Below are positions 1-9,374 of a stretch of DNA of 64,000 nt, piece by piece. The stretch covers positions 1,488,001 to 1,552,000 of the forward strand of contig NZ_QAOW01000001.1 of assembly GCF_003051005.1 (NCBI RefSeq). The letters are read 5' to 3'. Position 1 is the stretch's first letter. The number at the start of each line of letters is the position of its first letter. The notes beneath the pieces are model-generated. The model was not told the DNA's origin. It ran no database searches and worked only from the letters and a program-made list of their open reading frames with translations. The stretch is from Rhodococcus sp. OK519 (lineage in GTDB: Bacteria; Actinomycetota; Actinomycetes; Mycobacteriales; Mycobacteriaceae). The translations under genes were made by a program, and so were the position numbers.

Positions 1-282
1 GAGGTCTCTGGCCTCGATCAACGCGGGAACGGCTTGGACGCTCATGAAATCGACGCGGGAAAGGTCGAGGACGATGAGGTCGCCGTCCGCCAACCCGCTT
101 GCAGTCCGGTCGACCAGCGCCCCGAACATTGCCCGGAACATGTCGACGGTATTCAGGTCCAAGTCGTAGGCGATGTCCGCGATCAGCGCCGTCGAGTCTG
201 TGGCCGCGGATCGGTTGTGATCCTCGCCGACGCGGGTCTGCGTGCGAGGTGTGGTCGTTGCTGATATCGGAAGATCAGGCAC
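1..282 (-). CDS. STAS-domain anti-sigma factor antagonist, 3' end cut by window edge
   Basis: The reading frame starts at a GTG at 282 with a GGAGG ribosome site 8 bases upstream and runs off the left edge, so about 94 residues are visible. The C-terminal visible part reads DGDLIVLDLSRVDFMSVQA, which is the beta-strand plus conserved D-S/F-M-S loop typical of STAS proteins such as RsbV and SpoIIAA; the serine in this loop is the residue phosphorylated by an RsbW-type kinase in that family. The neighbouring rsbW-sigF pair fits a partner-switching role: the unphosphorylated antagonist would bind RsbW and free the sigma factor. That it acts on this particular RsbW is an inference. The first 40 residues are not conserved in any way I recognise. 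Confidence 0.75.
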   Translation of the reverse strand, partial: MPDLPISATTTPRTQTRVGEDHNRSAATDSTALIADIAYDLDLNTVDMFRAMFGALVDRTASGLADGDLIVLDLSRVDFMSVQAVPALIEARDL

Positions 283-2853: not shown

Positions 2854-3195
2854 TCATTCATCGGCGAGGAGTGGGCCCAGCGGCCCCAGATCGATGTTGA
2901 GATCCTCGGGTTCGAGCCCGAAATGCTCGCGCAACTCCTCCATCTTCTCCTCGAGTAGCATCAGCGTGGTACCGATTCGTTCGATCTGGTCGTCGGAGAG
3001 GTCGCCGGCATCTACTCGGCGCAGGGCCTGGCGTTCCATGAGCTGGCGCAACAGTTCGACGAGCGTGAGTACGAGGGCGACGAGCCCACGTTCGACGGAC
3101 TCTGGATCGGCATCGATTCGCTGCCGCACCGACGGGGAGTGCGAACGAGACACAGGCTCCTCGCCCGGGCGCCGATCGTCCGACGCGTCCGTCAC
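2854..3195 (-). CDS. gvpK: Gas vesicle protein GvpK
   Basis: The protein has 113 residues and is the last gene of the gas vesicle operon. The central hydrophobic helix GLVALVLTLVELLRQLMERQALRR and the following acidic segment with LSDDQIERIGTTLMLLEEKMEEL are typical of GvpK, a minor protein needed for gas vesicle formation. The C-terminal extension with repeated LGPL is short. Translation starts at a GTG overlapping the gvpS stop codon in a GTGA junction. Assignment rests on family motifs and operon position. Confidence 0.9.
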   Translation of the reverse strand: MTDASDDRRPGEEPVSRSHSPSVRQRIDADPESVERGLVALVLTLVELLRQLMERQALRRVDAGDLSDDQIERIGTTLMLLEEKMEELREHFGLEPEDLNIDLGPLGPLLADE

Positions 3196-3389
3196 CGGAG
3201 TCTTTCGGGTGGTCCGCCGAGTGGAGGCGTCAGTGCGCTGACCGACGACACGAGTGCGCGCAGTGAGATGTGAACCATGTCGACGTCGGCGATCGAGAGG
3301 GTCACTTCGCCGGCGACCACGACGCCGCCACCGAGGACTCGATCGAGAAGGTCGACCAGGGCGATCCGGCGATCGGGGTAAGCGGTCAT
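3192..3389 (-). CDS. gvpS: Gas vesicle protein GvpS (GvpA/J-family small subunit)
   Basis: This 65-residue protein belongs to the GvpA/GvpJ/GvpM fold: the stretch IALVDLLDRVLGGGVVVAGEV followed by a second amphipathic strand matches the family core of about 50 residues. The ATG at 3389 overlaps the gvpL stop in an ATGA junction, so a longer 79-residue frame starting inside gvpL is less likely. Position between gvpL and gvpK matches gvpS of Streptomyces gas vesicle clusters; GvpJ or GvpM are alternative names for the same kind of minor shell or nucleation protein. Confidence 0.82.
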   Translation of the reverse strand: MTAYPDRRIALVDLLDRVLGGGVVVAGEVTLSIADVDMVHISLRALVSSVSALTPPLGGPPERLR

Positions 3390-4165
3390 CGCGGACTCGA
3401 TCCGACGGCGGTGAACGAATAGGGAGGCCACGGCCCGGTGATCACGGTATCGACATCGTCGATGCGGGTATCGACGCTCTCTACCGCGGCAGTGAACTCG
3501 TGCACACGAGCGTTGTCGACCAGGTACGACGCGTTGAGAATCTCCGACGCTCGACGGGGGGAGAGGCCGGAGGCCGACGGTGGCTGGCGGACTGCGGCGA
3601 CCGCCAGATTGCCCAGTTCCGCGAAGATCTCATCGGCGAGCCGGGCGGCCTCCGATTGGGTCTCTTCCTGCGCCGCCGCCCGCGCCCGCCGCTCCATGAG
3701 ATATGCGGTCCCCGTTGTCTTGCGCTCCTTCTCGGCGGTGTCATCGCCGTCGGCTCGTCGACGATCGAGATATGACCTGATTCCCCACTCGGATCGGCCG
3801 GTGATGTGCTCCAGCGCGTCGGTGAGCTCTGCGGCGTTCTCGCGCAACATCGTTCGCACCCGATCCTCGTCGTAATACACGGTGGCCAATCGCATCGGCA
3901 CGGTGGTTCCCCCCGCGCAGATCGCGGCGACGACGGCGTCATGGCGGCGTGCTGTTTCGGATAGCCAGTCGAGGTCCTCGAGGTTGCGGCGCAGAGCCTG
4001 CTCGCCGAACGTATCGAGGGCGACCGTGCCCACGACAGAGGTGAAACCACCCTCGGTCACCGTGTTCAACTCTTCTCCGGCTACACCCCGAATCCCGGTG
4101 ATTCCACCGGGAAACGAACCCGCGGTGGTCACGGCGTATACCCACACGCCTTCATCGCGGGTCAT
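3386..4165 (-). CDS. gvpL: Gas vesicle protein GvpL/GvpF family
   Basis: This 259-residue protein is of the GvpF/GvpL family, accessory proteins that contact the shell protein during assembly. The N-terminal VWVYAVT strand, the central MRLATVYYDED segment and the C-terminal TGPWPPYSF motif are the expected landmarks. It starts at an ATG 14 bases inside the end of gvpJ, so the two are translationally coupled. It is the second GvpF/L paralogue in the operon; being beside gvpJ and gvpS it is named gvpL by order. An alanine- and arginine-rich coiled stretch lies around residues 155-195. Confidence 0.88.
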   Translation of the reverse strand: MTRDEGVWVYAVTTAGSFPGGITGIRGVAGEELNTVTEGGFTSVVGTVALDTFGEQALRRNLEDLDWLSETARRHDAVVAAICAGGTTVPMRLATVYYDEDRVRTMLRENAAELTDALEHITGRSEWGIRSYLDRRRADGDDTAEKERKTTGTAYLMERRARAAAQEETQSEAARLADEIFAELGNLAVAAVRQPPSASGLSPRRASEILNASYLVDNARVHEFTAAVESVDTRIDDVDTVITGPWPPYSFTAVGSSPR

Positions 4166-4604
4166 GCCGGTGGTCCTCGTCGACGGGCGGGTCGGCAGGA
4201 GGGTGAGCATTCGGGTTGACGGCCTCCACAGCTTGTGGGGGACCCGTCGTCAGGTCGCTTGCTGCCCGCCCACCCGACTCCAACGCTTCGATGCGATCGC
4301 GCAGCCTCCGGTTCTCCAACTCGAGGTCCTCGGCGTCACTGCTGCGACCGGAGAGCCACGGGTCGTGTTCCCACCAATCGATTCCGACCTCGCGCGCAGT
4401 CTCGAGCGACGCGATCACCAGACGCAGTTTGATTGTGAGCAGTTCGATGTCGAGCAGGTTTACGCGGATGTCACCGGCGATGACGATGCCCTTGTCCAGG
4501 ACGCGCTCGAGAATGTCGCCGAGATTCGCAGGCTCGTGCCCGGCGCCGCCGAGGCCCTGGCTGTAGCGCTGGGGATAATTGGACCCGCCACCCGAGCTGG
4601 TCAC
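4152..4604 (-). CDS. gvpJ: Gas vesicle protein GvpJ (GvpA-like, extended C-terminus)
   Basis: The protein has 150 residues. Residues about 25-85 form a GvpA/J core with LGDILERVLDKGIVIAGDIRV and IELLTIKLRLVIAS. Beyond it comes a short coiled coil (LELENRRLRDRIEALE) and a proline- and acid-rich tail. The core is closer to GvpJ than to the major shell protein: it has AGDIRVNLLDIELLTIKLRL where GvpA has [14 protein letters not shown]. The ATG overlaps the gvpO stop in an ATGA junction. The coiled coil suggests a binding role for the tail, which is inference. Confidence 0.87.
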   Translation of the reverse strand: MTSSGGGSNYPQRYSQGLGGAGHEPANLGDILERVLDKGIVIAGDIRVNLLDIELLTIKLRLVIASLETAREVGIDWWEHDPWLSGRSSDAEDLELENRRLRDRIEALESGGRAASDLTTGPPQAVEAVNPNAHPPADPPVDEDHRHDPR

Positions 4605-4900
4605 TGCTCAGCCCCCTTCCCGGACTGTCCGCGCGTGTACTGTCGGATCCTGCGGTAGGACAACAGCATTCCGTCCAGATCCAACACGACAACGTAGATG
4701 GCCATCACGTCGGACGACGACGGGATGCGGCGGTCCTCGAGAACCTCGACCTCGACGGACCATCCCTCGTCCGTGGGTGCGACCGAGACGGCTCCGATCG
4801 GTGTCCGGCCGGTCAGTTCGGCGATCTGACGGGCGGCCTCGGAGGCGGCCTCGGGCGCGGTCAGGTCGACGTGGTCTCCGGAATCTCCCGAGCCGCTCAT
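4601..4900 (-). CDS. gvpO: Gas vesicle protein GvpO
   Basis: This 99-residue protein fits GvpO, an accessory protein of unknown precise role that is required for vesicles in haloarchaea and found in actinobacterial clusters. The signature is a helix (AARQIAELTG), a beta hairpin around GWSVEVEVLEDRRIP and the C-terminal stretch YVVVLDLDGMLLSYRRIRQYTRG, all visible here. It lies 3 bases after gvpG and overlaps gvpJ by 4 bases. In Streptomyces gvpO opens the cluster; here it sits in the middle. Confidence 0.9.
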   Translation of the reverse strand: MSGSGDSGDHVDLTAPEAASEAARQIAELTGRTPIGAVSVAPTDEGWSVEVEVLEDRRIPSSSDVMAIYVVVLDLDGMLLSYRRIRQYTRGQSGKGAEQ

Positions 4901-4903
4901 GGG

Positions 4904-5167
4904 TTACTCCTCTCCGTTGCCGCCGTCGGTCGCGTCGATGTCGTCGACCCGTGCGACCCTGCCGAGGATCGTGCTTTCTTCGCACGCGGCCTCCTCGTCC
5001 GAGATCTGCCCCGAACGTCGAGCATCGTCAACTGCTTCGAGATCGCGGCGCACGGCGGCCGGACTGGAAAGCTCCTCCTCCACCTGGCGCCGCACGACCT
5101 CGCCGATCCACACGACGCCGCGGACGGGCGCGAGCGGCAAACCGGCGATGGCGGAAAAGAGCCCCAT
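4904..5167 (-). CDS. gvpG: Gas vesicle protein GvpG
   Basis: The 87-residue protein begins MGLFSAIAGLPLAPVRGVVWI, the conserved hydrophobic opening of GvpG, followed by a charged helix with VRRQVEEEL and an acidic C-terminus. GvpG is an accessory assembly protein that interacts with GvpF/L in other systems. It starts 2 bases after the gvpF stop, so the two are probably coupled. Confidence 0.9.
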   Translation of the reverse strand: MGLFSAIAGLPLAPVRGVVWIGEVVRRQVEEELSSPAAVRRDLEAVDDARRSGQISDEEAACEESTILGRVARVDDIDATDGGNGEE

Positions 5168-5169
5168 GG

Positions 5170-5952
5170 TCAGGCCCCCGGCGCTCGCGTCGTCACGAAG
5201 TCGTAGGCAGCGAGAGGCCCGGCCACGGTGATGTCGACCCGTCCTTGCCAGTCGTCGATCAGGGGATTCAGGGCCTTGTCGAGAGCATCGACCTGGTCTG
5301 CCGGGATCAGGACGGCCACCGAACCGGCATCCTCGTCGTGGGTCACCTCGCGGACCGTTACCGCCTTCGCAACCTGATCGAGCGCCCCGATGAGGCGCTC
5401 GGTGTCCTGCTCGCGTTTACCGGCCAGGGCTCGACTGATCAACTCGCCGAGCGCCAGTCGCTCGTCACGGGTCGCCTCCTCGGGCCGGTCACGGATCGTG
5501 TCCCGCAGACGGCTCGCCTCGGGATCGCCGGAGAGGATCTCACGGAGGATCGCGTCTTCGACATATCTGCCCTTGACCACGTATTCGACAGATCCTTCGA
5601 GCTGTTCGAGCGCGTCGCTGAACTCGTCCCGGTACGGCTCCAGAAACTCGGACACCACCGCGTCCCTGTCGGTCAGTACTGCACCGAACCGCAGCGGGAG
5701 AACCGGCGCGACGGTGGCCGTGGAGTCGAGCACCGCGGCGTGAGCACGAAGATCGTCCGGGCTGCCCAGTGGAGTGTCCGGTGGTATCTCGCTCACGAGC
5801 GCGGCTACGCCACCGTGCGTCACGATCTGCAGGGGGCGGGGAGGTGATCCGATGCCGGTCGCATCCGCATTCACTTCCACGTCGGCGGGGACCAAGCCAT
5901 AGACGTACACCACGGGTGCACCACCGTCGGGTGTGGAATTCGATTCCGTCAT
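5170..5952 (-). CDS. gvpF: Gas vesicle protein GvpF
   Basis: This 260-residue GvpF/GvpL family protein follows the shell gene directly, as gvpF does in other clusters. Landmarks are the N-terminal YVYGLVPA strand, the [10 protein letters not shown] segment near residue 90, the [11 protein letters not shown] hairpin and the C-terminal [12 protein letters not shown] motif. GvpF contacts GvpA monomers and is thought to start assembly. The ATG overlaps the gvpA stop in an ATGA junction. It is clearly diverged from the second paralogue at 3386-4165. Confidence 0.9.
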
Positions 5953-6347
5953 CTCTCCTCGCCTCCACCGGAGTGCCCGCGAGGCTGCCGTTCGTGTTCT
6001 TCGTCGGAGCCGCCGATGAAGTCCATCACCTTCTCGCCTGCAGCCTCGATCGCGCCCTTGGTCTTGGACCGGGCTCCACCTTCGGTGATGTCCTGCACCA
6101 TGTCGGGCAGGCCCTTCGGCTGGGTGTCGGAGATCTGCAGTCGGTTGACCGCCTCGGCGAACTTCAGGTAGGTGTCGACGCTGGCAACGACCACCCGTGC
6201 GTCGACGGTGAGCAGTTCGATGCCGACCAGCGACACACGGACGTAGGCATCGATTACGAGGCCCTTGTCGAGAATCGTGTCCACGACGTCGGCGAGGCTC
6301 TGTGAACTCGGTCCTCCGCCGCCACCCCCGCCTTGAACCATCGTCAT
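5949..6347 (-). CDS. gvpA: Gas vesicle major shell protein GvpA
   Basis: This 132-residue protein contains the GvpA core at about residues 17-72: [21 protein letters not shown], then [18 protein letters not shown] and [10 protein letters not shown]. These match the wall-forming protein almost position by position, unlike the other three GvpA-fold genes here. A glycine-rich N-terminus and a roughly 55-residue charged tail extend it beyond the classical 70 residues; extended GvpA proteins also occur in Streptomyces. It overlaps both neighbours by four bases. Confidence 0.92.
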
Positions 6348-7387
6348 TCGCGCGTCACCTTCTTCCGTCGACGCGCCGGGGGCGTCTCTTCGGTCCTGTC
6401 GTCGCTCGGCGCGGTCTCGTCGTCGTAGTCGTCCTCGGTGTCGTCCGGCCCGCCTGGCTCATCCGATTCCTGGTCTTGGTTCTCGTCCTGGTTCTCGTCC
6501 TGGTTCTCGTCGAACTCGGCGTCAGCGTCCTCGTCATCCTCGAGGTCCTCCTCGGGGACCACCTCGCCGTCTCGGATCTCGCCGTGCCATCCCTCCACGT
6601 CGTCCGGGTGCAGCAGGGCCTGAGTCATGACGTGGCGGCGGAAATTCTTGAGTTCCAGTCGGATTCGGCGCCCTTGGGCGCGCCAGATGTTGCCGGTCTT
6701 TTCGAAGAAGCCCTGTGGGTGATACTCGATCAGGACCAATACCCTGGTCAGGTCCGGAGTGAGTTCGTGGAACGTGATTGCGCCGTCGAGGTATCCCTTG
6801 TCGCCTTTCGACCGCCACACGATGCGTTCGTCCTGAACCTGCTCGAGGATCGTGGACTCCCACGATCGATGGGACCAGAAGACCTGCGCCTTCCACCTCG
6901 TCTTCTCGTCGGAGACCTGCTCCACCTGTTCGAGCTTCTTCATGAACCGGGGGAAATCGGCGAACTGTGTCCATTGGTCGTACACCAGATCGACCGGGGC
7001 CCCGATGTCGATCTGTTCGACGATGTTGGTGATCTTGTCCTTCTTGCCCTTGCCTTTTCCCTTCCCCTTACCTCCGGTGAGCGCGTCTTTGAGGCCGGTA
7101 CCCGCGTCCTTGATCTTGTCTTTCACGCTCGTCATTCCGGCCTTGACGGCCACCTTCGCGGGTGACTCGCCCTGGGCCAGGCCGGTCATCGCCGTGGCGA
7201 GTCCACCACCGCCGCCGTTCGAGGTGAATTGGTCCAGGTTGCCGACCGCCGACGTGACGGTATCGGTCAACGATTTGACCCCCTTCTGGGCGACGGCACC
7301 GACGAGGTGCTGAAGGGATGATTTGAGTTGGTCCCCATCGTCCGAGGCGGACCGATCAGCTTCTTTCTCCTCCTTGGTTACGGTCAT
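6344..7387 (-). CDS. gvpZ: SRPBCC (START/cyclase-like) gas vesicle operon protein, GvpZ-like
   Basis: The protein has 347 residues. Residues about 1-110 are low complexity with glycine and GK repeats; residues about 115-250 form an SRPBCC ligand-binding fold with [17 protein letters not shown] and [11 protein letters not shown]; the remaining 90 residues are a very acidic tail containing a DENQ repeat and a basic end. I chose the ATG at 7387, which has a GGGAGG site with 8-base spacing, over a GTG at 7396. In Streptomyces the SRPBCC gene of the gas vesicle cluster is called gvpZ; the symbol is by that analogy. Its ligand and role are unknown. Confidence 0.75.
6478..6513 (+). repeat. 12-base tandem repeat coding for DENQ repeats
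   Basis: The unit GGTTCTCGTCCT occurs twice exactly and a third time with two changes at the end. On the coding (minus) strand it produces the [12 protein letters not shown] run in the acidic tail of the GvpZ-like protein. Copy number may vary between strains by slippage. Confidence 0.85.
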
Positions 7388-7392
7388 TTCCC

Positions 7393-8082
7393 TCACCTCC
7401 CGGTGCGTCGCACGGGCGCGTCTGCGGGCGTAGTGGACCGCGAGCGTGCTCGTGCCTTCGGCTCGGAATCCTTACGCGTGCGGGGAGCGCCGCGTCGCGA
7501 CGACGATGCGCGGGACGCGGGGGAAGAGGTGCGGCGCCCGGAGCCTTTCGCCTCCGCCTCGGGCTGCTCCTGCTCGTCGTCGTTGTCGTCCTCGGCGGCG
7601 GATTCGTCGTGTTCGGTGTCCGCTCGCTTCCGGCGTGGGGCGCGCGAGCGTCCGCGCTCCGCCTCGGAATCGGGTGCCTCTGCCTCGGCTCCAACCTCTT
7701 CCGCTTCCTCGTCCTGATCGTGCTCCTGCTCCTCGCCCAGGACTCCTTCGCCGATCTTGCCTGCTTGCTCGCCGGCCACACCGACCCCCTCGCCGACACC
7801 TTCGATGCGACTCGTGAGCGAGTCGATTCGGTTGCTCGCTGCGGCGACAGCGGCATTCTTGGCGGCGTCGACCAGTTCGCCGCGGACGCTCTCGGTCAGC
7901 TTTCCGACCTCCGCGGAATCCCCGAGTCGTTTGATTCCTTCACGGACCAGTTCGCGAGAGTTACTCGGGAGACGGCCGGTCGCGCCCGCTCCGGCCAGCA
8001 TCAATGCGACCTTCATCTTGCGCGTACGGCCCAGGAAATAGCCGACCGCGACGCCTAGGGCGATGCGCATGCCACCGTTCAT
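7393..8082 (-). CDS. First gene of gas vesicle operon, GvpY-like, hydrophobic N-terminus with charged tail
   Basis: The 229-residue product begins with a mildly hydrophobic, glycine-rich segment (IALGVAVGYFLGRTRKMKVALML), then a helix-rich middle with repeated VREGIKRLG- and VRGELVDAAK-like segments up to about residue 110, and ends in roughly 110 residues of acidic then basic low complexity. The ATG at 8082 has a GGAGG site 7 bases upstream; the longer frame to 8184 lacks one. It ends four bases before, or overlapping, the start region of the SRPBCC gene. The same kind of gene precedes gvpZ in Streptomyces (gvpY); orthology is inferred from position and layout only. Function is unknown. Confidence 0.65.
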   Translation of the reverse strand: MNGGMRIALGVAVGYFLGRTRKMKVALMLAGAGATGRLPSNSRELVREGIKRLGDSAEVGKLTESVRGELVDAAKNAAVAAASNRIDSLTSRIEGVGEGVGVAGEQAGKIGEGVLGEEQEHDQDEEAEEVGAEAEAPDSEAERGRSRAPRRKRADTEHDESAAEDDNDDEQEQPEAEAKGSGRRTSSPASRASSSRRGAPRTRKDSEPKARARSRSTTPADAPVRRTGR

Positions 8083-8157
8083 GACCGGTCCTCCGTATTC
8101 GGGAGACGTGCGCCCGGTGCCCCGCCGGCCCGGATCGATCCCGCTCCATTCGTCGGG

Positions 8158-8182
8158 TAGCCCCCATCGCACCGAACCAAAC
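8158..8182 (-). promoter_or_regulatory. Weak SigF-like promoter candidate of the gas vesicle operon
   Basis: On the minus strand GTTT (8182-8179) is followed after 15 bases by GGGCTA (8163-8158), about 76 bases upstream of the first operon ATG. The -10 box is imperfect against a GGGTAT-like consensus. No better promoter is visible in this divergent region. Confidence 0.3.
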
Positions 8183-8283
8183 ACGAAACAGCGGCCGATT
8201 CGGACGATCTGATGCTGGGGAGACCGGACGAATGGACGGGGGCCGGGTGGGGTACGCGGACGGTGACTGACAAGGAGGACACG

Positions 8284-8541
8284 ATGACCGATCCAGGAGC
8301 ACCCGTCGGACCCGATCCCGATCCTCGCGAGACGCCGGACCTCGAGCCTGGCGGAGGCGTCCCAGCCGGGTCCACGCCGCCGGCGTCAGGTGGTACCTCA
8401 GGAATCTCGGAGCACGAGCCTGATACCCGCGGCCGGTTTCCCCCGACCGGTGCGGCGACGATCGTTGTCGTCGGCTTGATCGTGGTCGTTTTCGTCGTTG
8501 TAGTGGTCGGACTCATCCTGATGGCAGCCGGCGTCTGGTAG
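8284..8541 (+). CDS. DUF6480-type small membrane protein
   Basis: The 85-residue protein starts with a polar proline-rich region containing DLEPGGGVPAGSTPP, a motif I associate with DUF6480 proteins of actinobacteria, and ends in one transmembrane helix of almost pure Val/Ile/Leu (residues about 58-80). A perfect AAGGAGG ribosome site precedes the ATG. It is read divergently from the gas vesicle operon, with about 200 bases between starts. Function is unknown. Confidence 0.75.
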   Translation: MTDPGAPVGPDPDPRETPDLEPGGGVPAGSTPPASGGTSGISEHEPDTRGRFPPTGAATIVVVGLIVVVFVVVVVGLILMAAGVW

Positions 8542-8829: not shown

Positions 8830-9258
8830 CTATTTCTTCTCGGGATGCGTCGTCTCCGGAGGATGATCCTCACCGCGTCGGGTGCCCGACTGGTGGGCCG
8901 GACCGACGCCCTTGTCGGATGACGAAGGCTTCTCGTGCTCGACCGCGCTCTTCTGGGCCTGCCCGCCGCCATCGGGGTTGCCGGCGCGTGCGCGCATGTG
9001 CTCGGCAGACTTCGCTTGCTTCTGACGGTCGTCGTAGGGCGGAACGGCAGCATCATCCGACTCGGATCCGAGGCCCCCTGCGTCGTCGGGTCGCTGCCAG
9101 CCCGGCTCGCCAGAGGAGGTCATGGACTCGTCCTCGAACGCGCCTTCTCGGCGGTGCTCTCCCACACTGGGTGCGTCGGCGCCGGTGTCTCGCGACCCCG
9201 GTTCGCCGCGCTCTGATTGCGGTTCCTCTTCGAGATGCTCGCCCGGTTTCTGCGTCAT
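8830..9258 (-). CDS. Hydrophilic acidic protein, probably disordered
   Basis: The 142-residue product is almost free of hydrophobic residues and rich in Glu, Asp, Gly, Ser and Pro, with no recognisable domain. Such composition resembles stress-related hydrophilins, but I cannot assign a family. The ATG at 9258 has a GGAGG site 5 bases upstream, so the frame to 9279 is trimmed. A GGGTAG box upstream on the minus strand resembles a SigF -10 element, but the -35 is unclear. Confidence 0.6.
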   Translation of the reverse strand: MTQKPGEHLEEEPQSERGEPGSRDTGADAPSVGEHRREGAFEDESMTSSGEPGWQRPDDAGGLGSESDDAAVPPYDDRQKQAKSAEHMRARAGNPDGGGQAQKSAVEHEKPSSSDKGVGPAHQSGTRRGEDHPPETTHPEKK

Positions 9259-9374
9259 GACTGCCTCCTCGTTATCCACCGACGTCTCGGGAACGGCGGA
9301 GGGAATGGGCGCGGTGTTCCCGTACTACCCACTCGTCGTGTCCGCTACACCATCGACGGCGGGGCGAGCCGTGA

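Follow-up and report, generated by a model that had tools for sequence, protein, structure and literature searches.

Gas vesicle genes and their neighbors in the window

The window, by which we mean the entire 64 kb stretch of DNA analyzed here, comes from a genus that in current naming is Prescottella (formerly Rhodococcus). On its minus strand, positions 2854-8082 contained ten open and densely packed genes in the order gvpY-Z-A-F-G-O-J-L-S-K, 8 of which matched Pfam families of gas vesicles above the curated cut-off, and the ten-gene operon proposed in the first-pass annotation was thereby confirmed in the order given there. The genes, the promoter-like block and the neighboring regulatory genes were as follows.

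8155..8184, minus strand: promoter-like block with the sequence GTGTTTG-N15-GGCTACCC; 72 nt separate its end from gvpY
7393..8082, minus strand: gvpY, 229 aa
6344..7387, minus strand: gvpZ, 347 aa; PF03364 (Polyketide_cyc), 74 bits
5949..6347, minus strand: gvpA, shell protein of 132 aa with a C-terminal extension; PF00741; NF006872, 163.9 bits (cut-off 151)
5170..5952, minus strand: gvpF; PF06386; PDB relatives 6l5d and 4qsg
4904..5167, minus strand: gvpG; PF05120
4601..4900, minus strand: gvpO; PF05800
4152..4604, minus strand: gvpJ, GvpA family, GTG start; PF00741; subtype from position and weak NCBIfam matches
3386..4165, minus strand: gvpL; PF06386 (searched from the upstream start at 4174); ATG at 4165 chosen as start
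3192..3389, minus strand: gvpS, GvpA family; PF00741 (searched from the start at 3431); subtype by position
2854..3195, minus strand: gvpK, GTG start; PF05121, 131.6 bits
2253..2693, minus strand: RsbW-like anti-sigma ATPase; HATPase_c_2, PF13581, 39.1 bits
1480..2271, minus strand: SigF-family sigma factor; NF005514 SigF, 376.6 bits (cut-off 372); TIGR02980, 295.8 (cut-off 234.35); searched from 2238
1..195, minus strand: STAS-domain gene, anti-anti-sigma-like, cut off by the left window edge; L160:9830-10501, PF01740, 40.0 bits

The junctions Z-A, A-F, O-J, L-S, and S-K were 4-base overlaps, and gaps of 5, 2, and 3 bases separated Y-Z, F-G, and G-O, while J-L overlapped by 14 bases when the ATG of gvpL at 4165 was used. 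The description of almost all junctions as 4-base overlaps or gaps of 2 to 3 bases was thus true for 7 of the 9. For gvpS, an alternative in-frame start was located upstream at 3431, and the ATG at 3389 gives the 4-base overlap with gvpL. The accessory set F/L, G, J, K, O, and S was present in full according to Pfam, with position deciding the subtypes of J and S. The operon had been called complete, which holds for the ten intact genes but not for GvpN, an ATPase found in many such clusters, for which no match in the genome itself exceeded the curated cut-off (best score 36 bits against 266.8). The missing GvpN is not disqualifying, since gvpN is also missing from the S. coelicolor list in the accessible part of PMC9501494. 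We conclude that the operon is a real and intact gas vesicle gene set of an already-known type that is common in soil actinobacteria.

The core of GvpA was conserved and could be aligned to the solved GvpA chains 7r1c (77 residues) and 8gbs (58 residues), with retention of the core residues whose loss had been named in advance as evidence against the operon. In comparisons of the window with 6 congeners, dN was well below dS for most gene pairs, with dN values of 0.015-0.044 against dS values of 0.79-1.04 for gvpK, and of 0.088-0.141 against 0.75-1.06 for gvpA. By the same measure, gvpY was the least constrained gene of the operon. Two pairs were outliers, one for gvpY (0.909/1.393) and one for gvpL (1.26/2.121), probably owing to a misplaced frame start or a misalignment. 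The accessory genes F, G, J, K, L, S, and O have been maintained under mostly purifying selection.

Gene order, distribution, and the gvpY-gvpZ pair

The order YZAFGOJLSK, the commonest arrangement identified, was shared by 32 of 41 clusters selected through GvpK and by 60 of 80 loci selected through GvpZ. The idea that the gene order is unusual was therefore rejected, and the supposed oddity of the Y and Z genes was likewise not upheld, as both are named in S. coelicolor.

Within the genus, 7 of the 14 genomes gave no GvpK match. The presence and absence of the operon required at least 2 changes on a SigF plus RsbW tree of 10 genomes, and empty operon sites were identified in 3 gvp-less congeners in which the SigF locus was present. 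A recent horizontal gain in Prescottella was not supported by a tree of 8 proteins, inferred with a quick method, in which Prescottella grouped with Rhodococcus/Gordonia, Mycobacterium, and Nocardia (a clade of 41 rows, support 92). A tree of GvpZ only was in conflict with the 8-protein tree, and placed Actinocrinis beside Prescottella (support 95).

The GvpY protein contained 2 short hydrophobic stretches flanking a basic loop, GYFLGRTRKMK, followed by an acidic and basic low-complexity tail; GvpY of the window had no Pfam match up to an E-value of 0.05 and a single chance-level match at 0.47. The GvpZ protein consisted of a Gly/Lys-rich N-terminus, helical at low confidence, an SRPBCC/START-like domain at about residues 120-257, and an acidic tail. 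An AlphaFold2 model had pLDDT values above 90 across most of the SRPBCC domain, and the best PDB match by E-value in a Foldseek search was 3ggn. The Pfam match and the predicted structure indicate that GvpZ has an SRPBCC/START helix-grip fold.

Both Y and Z were present in 38 of the 41 loci picked by GvpK, as adjacent genes inside the operon, and the pair occupied 2 different operon positions across clusters. However, Y-Z or Z had neither gvpA nor gvpF in its vicinity at 14 of the 80 named loci, of which at least L122 and L143 are at contig ends, and in a Kitasatospora plasmid the Y/Z genes were divergent from the gvp operon. Furthermore, 5 order-sample genomes without a GvpK match carried true GvpZ and GvpY according to profile matches, and gvpY-gvpZ was also found in genomes without GvpA or GvpK matches. 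A third, unnamed protein at YZ-X loci, here called X, contained a conserved domain of 100 residues followed by amphipathic repeats of 11 residues. It was not kin to GvpA (hhalign probability 0.1), and its structure model, with a mean pLDDT of 44, was too poor for use. No SigF-type promoter motif was matched before the YZ-X loci in any of 7 cases. The first-pass annotation had described Y and Z as having no known assembly role, and this agrees with the accessible text of the literature searched, in which no functional data on the actinobacterial proteins were found. The free-standing gvpY-gvpZ pair may offer a handle on 2 proteins for which no known role was found.

The upstream block and the SigF locus

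The promoter-like block contained GTTT-N16-GGCTA at 8182-8158, in which the -35 GTTT is present at the correct spacing for a SigF/SigB-type promoter. A GTTT-N16-GG(C/T)TA block was aligned about 100 nt upstream of the operon in each of the genus's 7 genomes with gvp genes, including L040, where it was visible in the alignment made with the correct gvpY start. The block pattern, which was derived from the site and its relatives, had this site as its sole match in the 64 kb at up to 1 mismatch, and 0 matches in 100 shuffles. The -10 element was not GGGTA; it was GGCTA in the window and GG(C/T)TA across the 7 genomes of the genus with the operon. No sigma-70 promoter was found in a promoter scan, and a terminator scan yielded 4 terminator-like sites versus 5.2 in shuffles.

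Across the actinobacteria, GTTT-N14-17-GGGTA was identified upstream of gvp genes in 33 of 97 distinct regions, which include relatives and are not independent, and in 2 on the other strand. The spacing was 15 or 16 in 31 of the 33 matches. As controls, 79 permuted motifs had a mean of 0.72 matches, the largest number being 14 for a one-base slide, and GC-matched windows contained the motif in 62 of 5791 cases. None of the 7 regions from the genus, of the 35 from further genera in its family group, or of the 2 from the Streptomycetaceae combined GTTT with GGGTA. In the remaining genera of the family, no clear motif emerged from a search for motif pairs, and a looser -35 (G.TT) together with GGGTA was observed in 9 of the 35 regions. 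According to the available portion of PMC8346170, promoters of the SigB homologues in S. coelicolor are similar to the SigB consensus of B. subtilis, GTTTAA-N12-14-GGG(A/T)A(A/T), and the first three G of the -10 are nearly invariant. Judged from these motifs, the shared GTTT-N15/16-GGGTA would extend the published SigB dependence of the S. coelicolor gvp genes, although the genus and its close relatives lack the canonical -10.

A SigF gene with at least 77% identity was located downstream of gvpK on the same strand in each of the 7 congeneric genomes that carry gvp, counting the one studied here. The RsbW-like gene, whose matches to NCBIfam anti-sigma families fall below their cut-offs, adjoined it in the same 7 genomes, and both were within about 10 kb of the operon. 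Since the SigF gene was also present in 3 of 7 gvp-less congeners, it is not dedicated to gvp. No SigF-type motif was found before rsbW-sigF in the window in the exact form scanned.

A probable stress-responsive operon and its relation to known systems

We consider it fairly probable that the locus is an intact actinomycete-type gas vesicle operon, kept by selection and most likely transcribed as one unit that is switched on by a SigF/SigB-type stress sigma factor. The analysis showed the ten genes with their families and conservation, the mostly purifying selection, the conserved block ahead of gvpY, and the neighboring genes for a sigma factor, an anti-sigma-like protein, and a STAS protein, and the following steps are inferred. 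Under stress, SigF would be freed from the RsbW-like protein by STAS partner switching and would read the block at 8155-8184. GvpA would then form the ribbed shell, while GvpJ/S and GvpF/L/G/K/O would initiate and aid it, in the vesicle-building roles that these proteins have in other organisms. GvpZ, with its lipid-cradle-like SRPBCC domain, and GvpY, with its hydrophobic hairpin and charged tail, may have accessory roles at a hydrophobic surface, which could be the growing shell or the membrane.

In the accessible parts of the literature, the S. coelicolor gvp cluster shows SigB-dependent expression (PMC6629963, PMC5733086) and is induced by salt, acid, and pellet growth, with no effect of its disruption on buoyancy (PMC5839063, PMC2631018, PMC6629963); acid shock raised the expression of 11 of the 16 gvp genes and lowered that of 2 (PMC2631018). 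As far as the available text goes, functional gas vesicles have not been reported in actinomycetes (PMC6629963) or in S. coelicolor (PMC4982088), contrary to a review stating that Streptomyces form gas vesicles (PMC9501494). We counted as evidence against the favored reading the GGCTA in place of GGGTA, the lack of GTTT with GGGTA in the genus, its family group, and the 2 Streptomycetaceae regions, the SigF gene in gvp-less congeners, the lack of GvpN, the absence of GvpK from half of the 14 genomes, the published statements that functional vesicles have not been reported, and the mixed acid-shock response.

The published induction pattern, the unaffected buoyancy, and the occurrence of Y and Z in genomes without GvpA or GvpK matches would also suit assemblies of Gvp proteins with a role in stress, such as turgor or envelope or protein protection, that contain no gas-filled vesicles. 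We regard this as rather unlikely, given that the GvpA core and F, G, J, K, L, S, and O have been retained, seemingly more than a loose assembly needs. Slightly less likely still, gvpY and gvpZ may be passengers with a function of their own and no relation to vesicles, as the loci away from gvpA and gvpF (partly at contig ends), the divergent pair on the Kitasatospora plasmid, and the 5 genomes without GvpK would suggest; their presence in 38 of 41 GvpK-picked loci and in 2 operon positions argues for a tie to vesicle formation. The patchy distribution of GvpK, the repeated presence/absence changes, the 3 empty sites, and the weak constraint on gvpY would all be expected of a cryptic cluster that is being lost and has been retained by chance, but this is improbable in view of the ten open frames, the low dN/dS in most comparisons, and the conserved upstream block, and was already weakened by the signs of selection.

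Beyond the stress-induced operon that we favor, we tentatively suggest a broader and rather speculative scheme, in which GvpY-GvpZ acts as a self-contained module for hydrophobic surfaces, contributing to gas vesicle building and, with X, serving another surface in vesicle-gene-free genomes, and in which actinobacterial gas vesicles are generally a SigB/SigF stress output and not buoyancy organs. A stress-type promoter common to gvp operons of several families, together with a SigF locus shared by species with and without the operon, provides a direct way of testing what makes soil actinobacteria retain these genes.

Compared with the solved shells 7r1c and 8gbs, GvpA of the window has an alignable core and an extra C-terminal extension of about 60 residues, which is also part of the 143-position NF006872 model. 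Among solved structures, the one nearest in sequence to the SRPBCC domain of GvpZ is DR_A0006 of Deinococcus radiodurans (3ggn, 2kcz), a chain of 155 residues deposited as uncharacterized, which lacks the long N-terminal region and the acidic tail of GvpZ. The GvpY and GvpZ proteins of Serratia sp. ATCC 39006 share their names with the actinobacterial proteins, and shared letters do not imply homology. In Nocardia, gvpAFGOJLMK adjoins narGHIJ in the available text of PMC7600791; the order from gvpA onward is the same as in the window, but the neighbor is a nitrate reductase rather than a SigF module, and that text does not mention gvpY or gvpZ. The S. coelicolor clusters (SCO6499-6508 and SCO0649-0657) contain the same families, including gvpY and gvpZ, with no gvpN in the published list. 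As anticipated in the first-pass annotation, the order differs from that in Streptomyces: SCO6499-6507, where gvpY and gvpZ are named, reads O-A-F-G-Y-Z-J-L-S in the part of PMC5839063 available, versus Y-Z-A-F-G-O-J-L-S-K in the window, and the equivalence of Y and Z was assigned through 4 order-sample clusters with the Streptomyces order in which Y and Z matched the window profiles.

The operon and its gene order

The ten gas vesicle genes proposed in the first-pass annotation were recovered on the minus strand of the window between 8082 and 2854, all ten with open frames, in the order gvpY-Z-A-F-G-O-J-L-S-K and with junctions of 5, -4, -4, 2, 3, -4, -14, -4, and -4 bases from gvpY to gvpK (negative values are overlaps). 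Gas vesicle Pfam families were matched above their cut-offs by 8 of the 10 genes; gvpZ matched PF03364, and no Pfam match was obtained for gvpY at an E-value of 0.05. The GvpA protein passed two NCBIfam GvpA models, and its core was found to be kept: residues 14 to 71 align without gaps with the shell protein structures 7r1c and 8gbs. Solved relatives of GvpF are 6l5d and 4qsg. Overall, the operon is intact and of the normal actinomycete gas vesicle type, and its host is new. Prescottella equi (R. equi), an animal pathogen, served for comparison only. Among the papers searched, none paired "gas vesicle" with "Rhodococcus equi", and the article on the R. equi genome mentions neither "gas vesicle" nor "gvp" in its main text.

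In the predicted structure of GvpZ, an SRPBCC/START-like fold was modelled with confidence between approximately residues 120 and 257, and confidence was low over most of the remainder (mean pLDDT 68). The first PDB match by E-value was DR_A0006, with a TM-score of 0.74 by target length. In GvpY, two hydrophobic stretches flank a conserved GYxLGR...K loop, and there is a long charged tail.

GvpK was identified in 7 of 14 Prescottella genomes (a genus formerly part of Rhodococcus), the window genome included, in 73 of the 397 genomes of the order sample, and in 20 of the 296 genomes of the phylum sample, 19 of these above the cut-off. We examined 41 loci picked by GvpK. Besides the window, they came from its gvp-bearing congeners (6 genomes) and from the order sample, where 34 of a further 72 gvp-bearing genomes, mostly the better-scoring ones, were used. 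Genes were called with profiles built from the window proteins, and a gene that scored as J but stood in the S position was taken as S. The window order was present in 32 of the 41 loci, O-A-F-G-Y-Z-J-L-S-K in 4, and other or partial forms in 5; Y and Z were each found in 38. The window order also occurred in 60 of the best 80 named loci obtained with a GvpZ alignment (at least 590 confirmed), a set that overlaps in part with the GvpK-picked loci, some contigs, recognized by their equal lengths, being common to both. As the annotation had stated, the order differs from that of Streptomyces, the S. coelicolor order being O-A-F-G-Y-Z-J-L-S in the excerpt of PMC5839063; the list is given as OAFG-JLSK in PMC9501494, and an excerpt on Nocardia gives AFGOJLMK (PMC7600791).

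Gas vesicle genes were also seen on plasmids, in R. opacus pRop44186_b (L250) and Kitasatospora (L251). In the Kitasatospora operon, annotation covers A, F, G, K, and L/F, and O, J, and S were assigned from their positions. The gvpY and gvpZ places are taken by two genes that run divergently from this operon and have a CsbD gene after them; the public record calls them "histone protein" and "SRPBCC family protein". Rhodococcus koreensis DSM 44498 (G713; L116) contained thirteen GvpA-family matches scattered over several contigs, nine of which share score and E-value, and another genome of that family (L242, L243) had partial clusters, in one of which gvpA and gvpF are repeated.

Descent, loss and the SigF locus

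An RsbW-like ATPase gene is located 160 bases downstream of gvpK on the same strand, followed on the operon strand by a sigma gene scoring above the SigF model cut-off and then by a STAS-domain gene. A protein with two DUF427 stretches (PF04248; 611-1396, opposite strand) adjoins the sigma and STAS genes. Identity of the sigma gene was 77% or more across the 7 gvp-bearing Prescottella genomes, where it lies on the gvpK strand at distances from less than 1 kb to about 10 kb from gvpK. Of the 7 gvp-less congeners, 3 have it too, with an identity of 76% to 79%. All 3 of the latter, when fetched, contained the SigF locus without the gvp operon. In one of them (L245), 155 bases separate the sequence matching the rsbW-like gene from that matching window positions 8833-9324, and the two others (L246, L247) retained a match (window 8311-8378) to the following gene:

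8284-8541, divergent from the operon: DUF6480 gene

In these two congeners the match marks the edge of the missing operon. On the SigF plus RsbW tree of ten genomes, gvp presence and absence needs at least two changes, which could be two losses, or one gain and one loss.

In comparisons of the gvp genes with those of the six gvp-bearing congeners, dN was mostly well below dS; gvpY was the least constrained gene, and two pairs, one of gvpY and one of gvpL, were outliers. In a tree of eight proteins and 96 clusters, Prescottella formed one group (support 100) and clustered with other genera of its own family group (support 92), a placement that fits mainly vertical descent. However, the tree of GvpZ alone disagrees, placing Actinocrinis beside Prescottella.

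The gvpY-gvpZ pair and family X

The gvpY-gvpZ pair also occurs apart from vesicle genes. Z or Y-Z was located beside a gene of a family here called X, without other gvp neighbors, in 7 named loci. Among 19 genomes checked, Z was present without a GvpA or GvpK match in 4, although drafts may miss genes: Prauserella alba, Micromonospora chalcea, one Actinomadura, and one MAG. The M. chalcea locus is probably a remnant, since the syntenic locus of Micromonospora sp. RP3T keeps a GvpA fragment. Profiles run on fetched stretches identified both Y and Z in five order-sample genomes without a GvpK match (G040, G059, G104, G197, and G300), all five of which matched X.

X is an actinobacterial family whose members have a conserved domain of 100 residues and, after it, GEGAG repeats 11 residues long, for example:

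L124, 8910-9212: X
L128, 8540-8842: X
L145, 11073-11375: X
L149, 11111-11413: X

Weak Apolipoprotein-like repeat matches were obtained for 3 of 4 X proteins, and no PDB relative was found. X was present in 64 of the 397 order-sample genomes and is not tied to Z, because 7 of 20 fetched X neighborhoods contained a strong GvpZ match.

The block upstream of gvpY

In all 7 gvp-bearing Prescottella genomes, GTGTTTG is followed 15 bases on by GG(C/T)TANCC upstream of gvpY, in otherwise divergent sequence. GTTT...GGGTA is a SigF/SigB-type motif, and it was fixed before it was counted. The count covered 97 distinct regions, each the 300 nt ahead of the point where the profile of the first gvp gene matches; 33 of them contained the motif with a spacing of 14 to 17. 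Close relatives are among the regions, so these are not 33 independent events. The spacing was 15 or 16 in 31 of the 33. The other strand gave 2 of 97, GC-matched windows of the same loci 62 of 5,791, and 79 permuted motifs a mean of 0.72 and a maximum of 14 (a one-base slide), as against 33.

Motif-bearing gvp upstream regions by group
Named Micromonosporaceae: 8/8
Named Pseudonocardiaceae: 2/5
Thermomonosporaceae: 2/4
Streptosporangiaceae: 1/8
Jiangellaceae: 1/1
Family f14: 14/18
Family f15: 5/5
Streptomycetaceae: 0/2
Other genera of the window's family group: 0/35

Given these counts by group, the Prescottella -10 is a variant form, and the sigma factor assignment of the block is one that we infer. 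A literature search gave no description of a SigB/SigF-type gvp promoter shared across families, which is no proof of absence. With SigF as a neighbor and a stress-type promoter ahead of related operons, the question of gvp function becomes testable. In the excerpts consulted, the S. coelicolor gvp cluster is described as SigB-dependent in expression (PMC6629963, PMC5733086), and promoters of the S. coelicolor SigB homologues are in print (PMC8346170).
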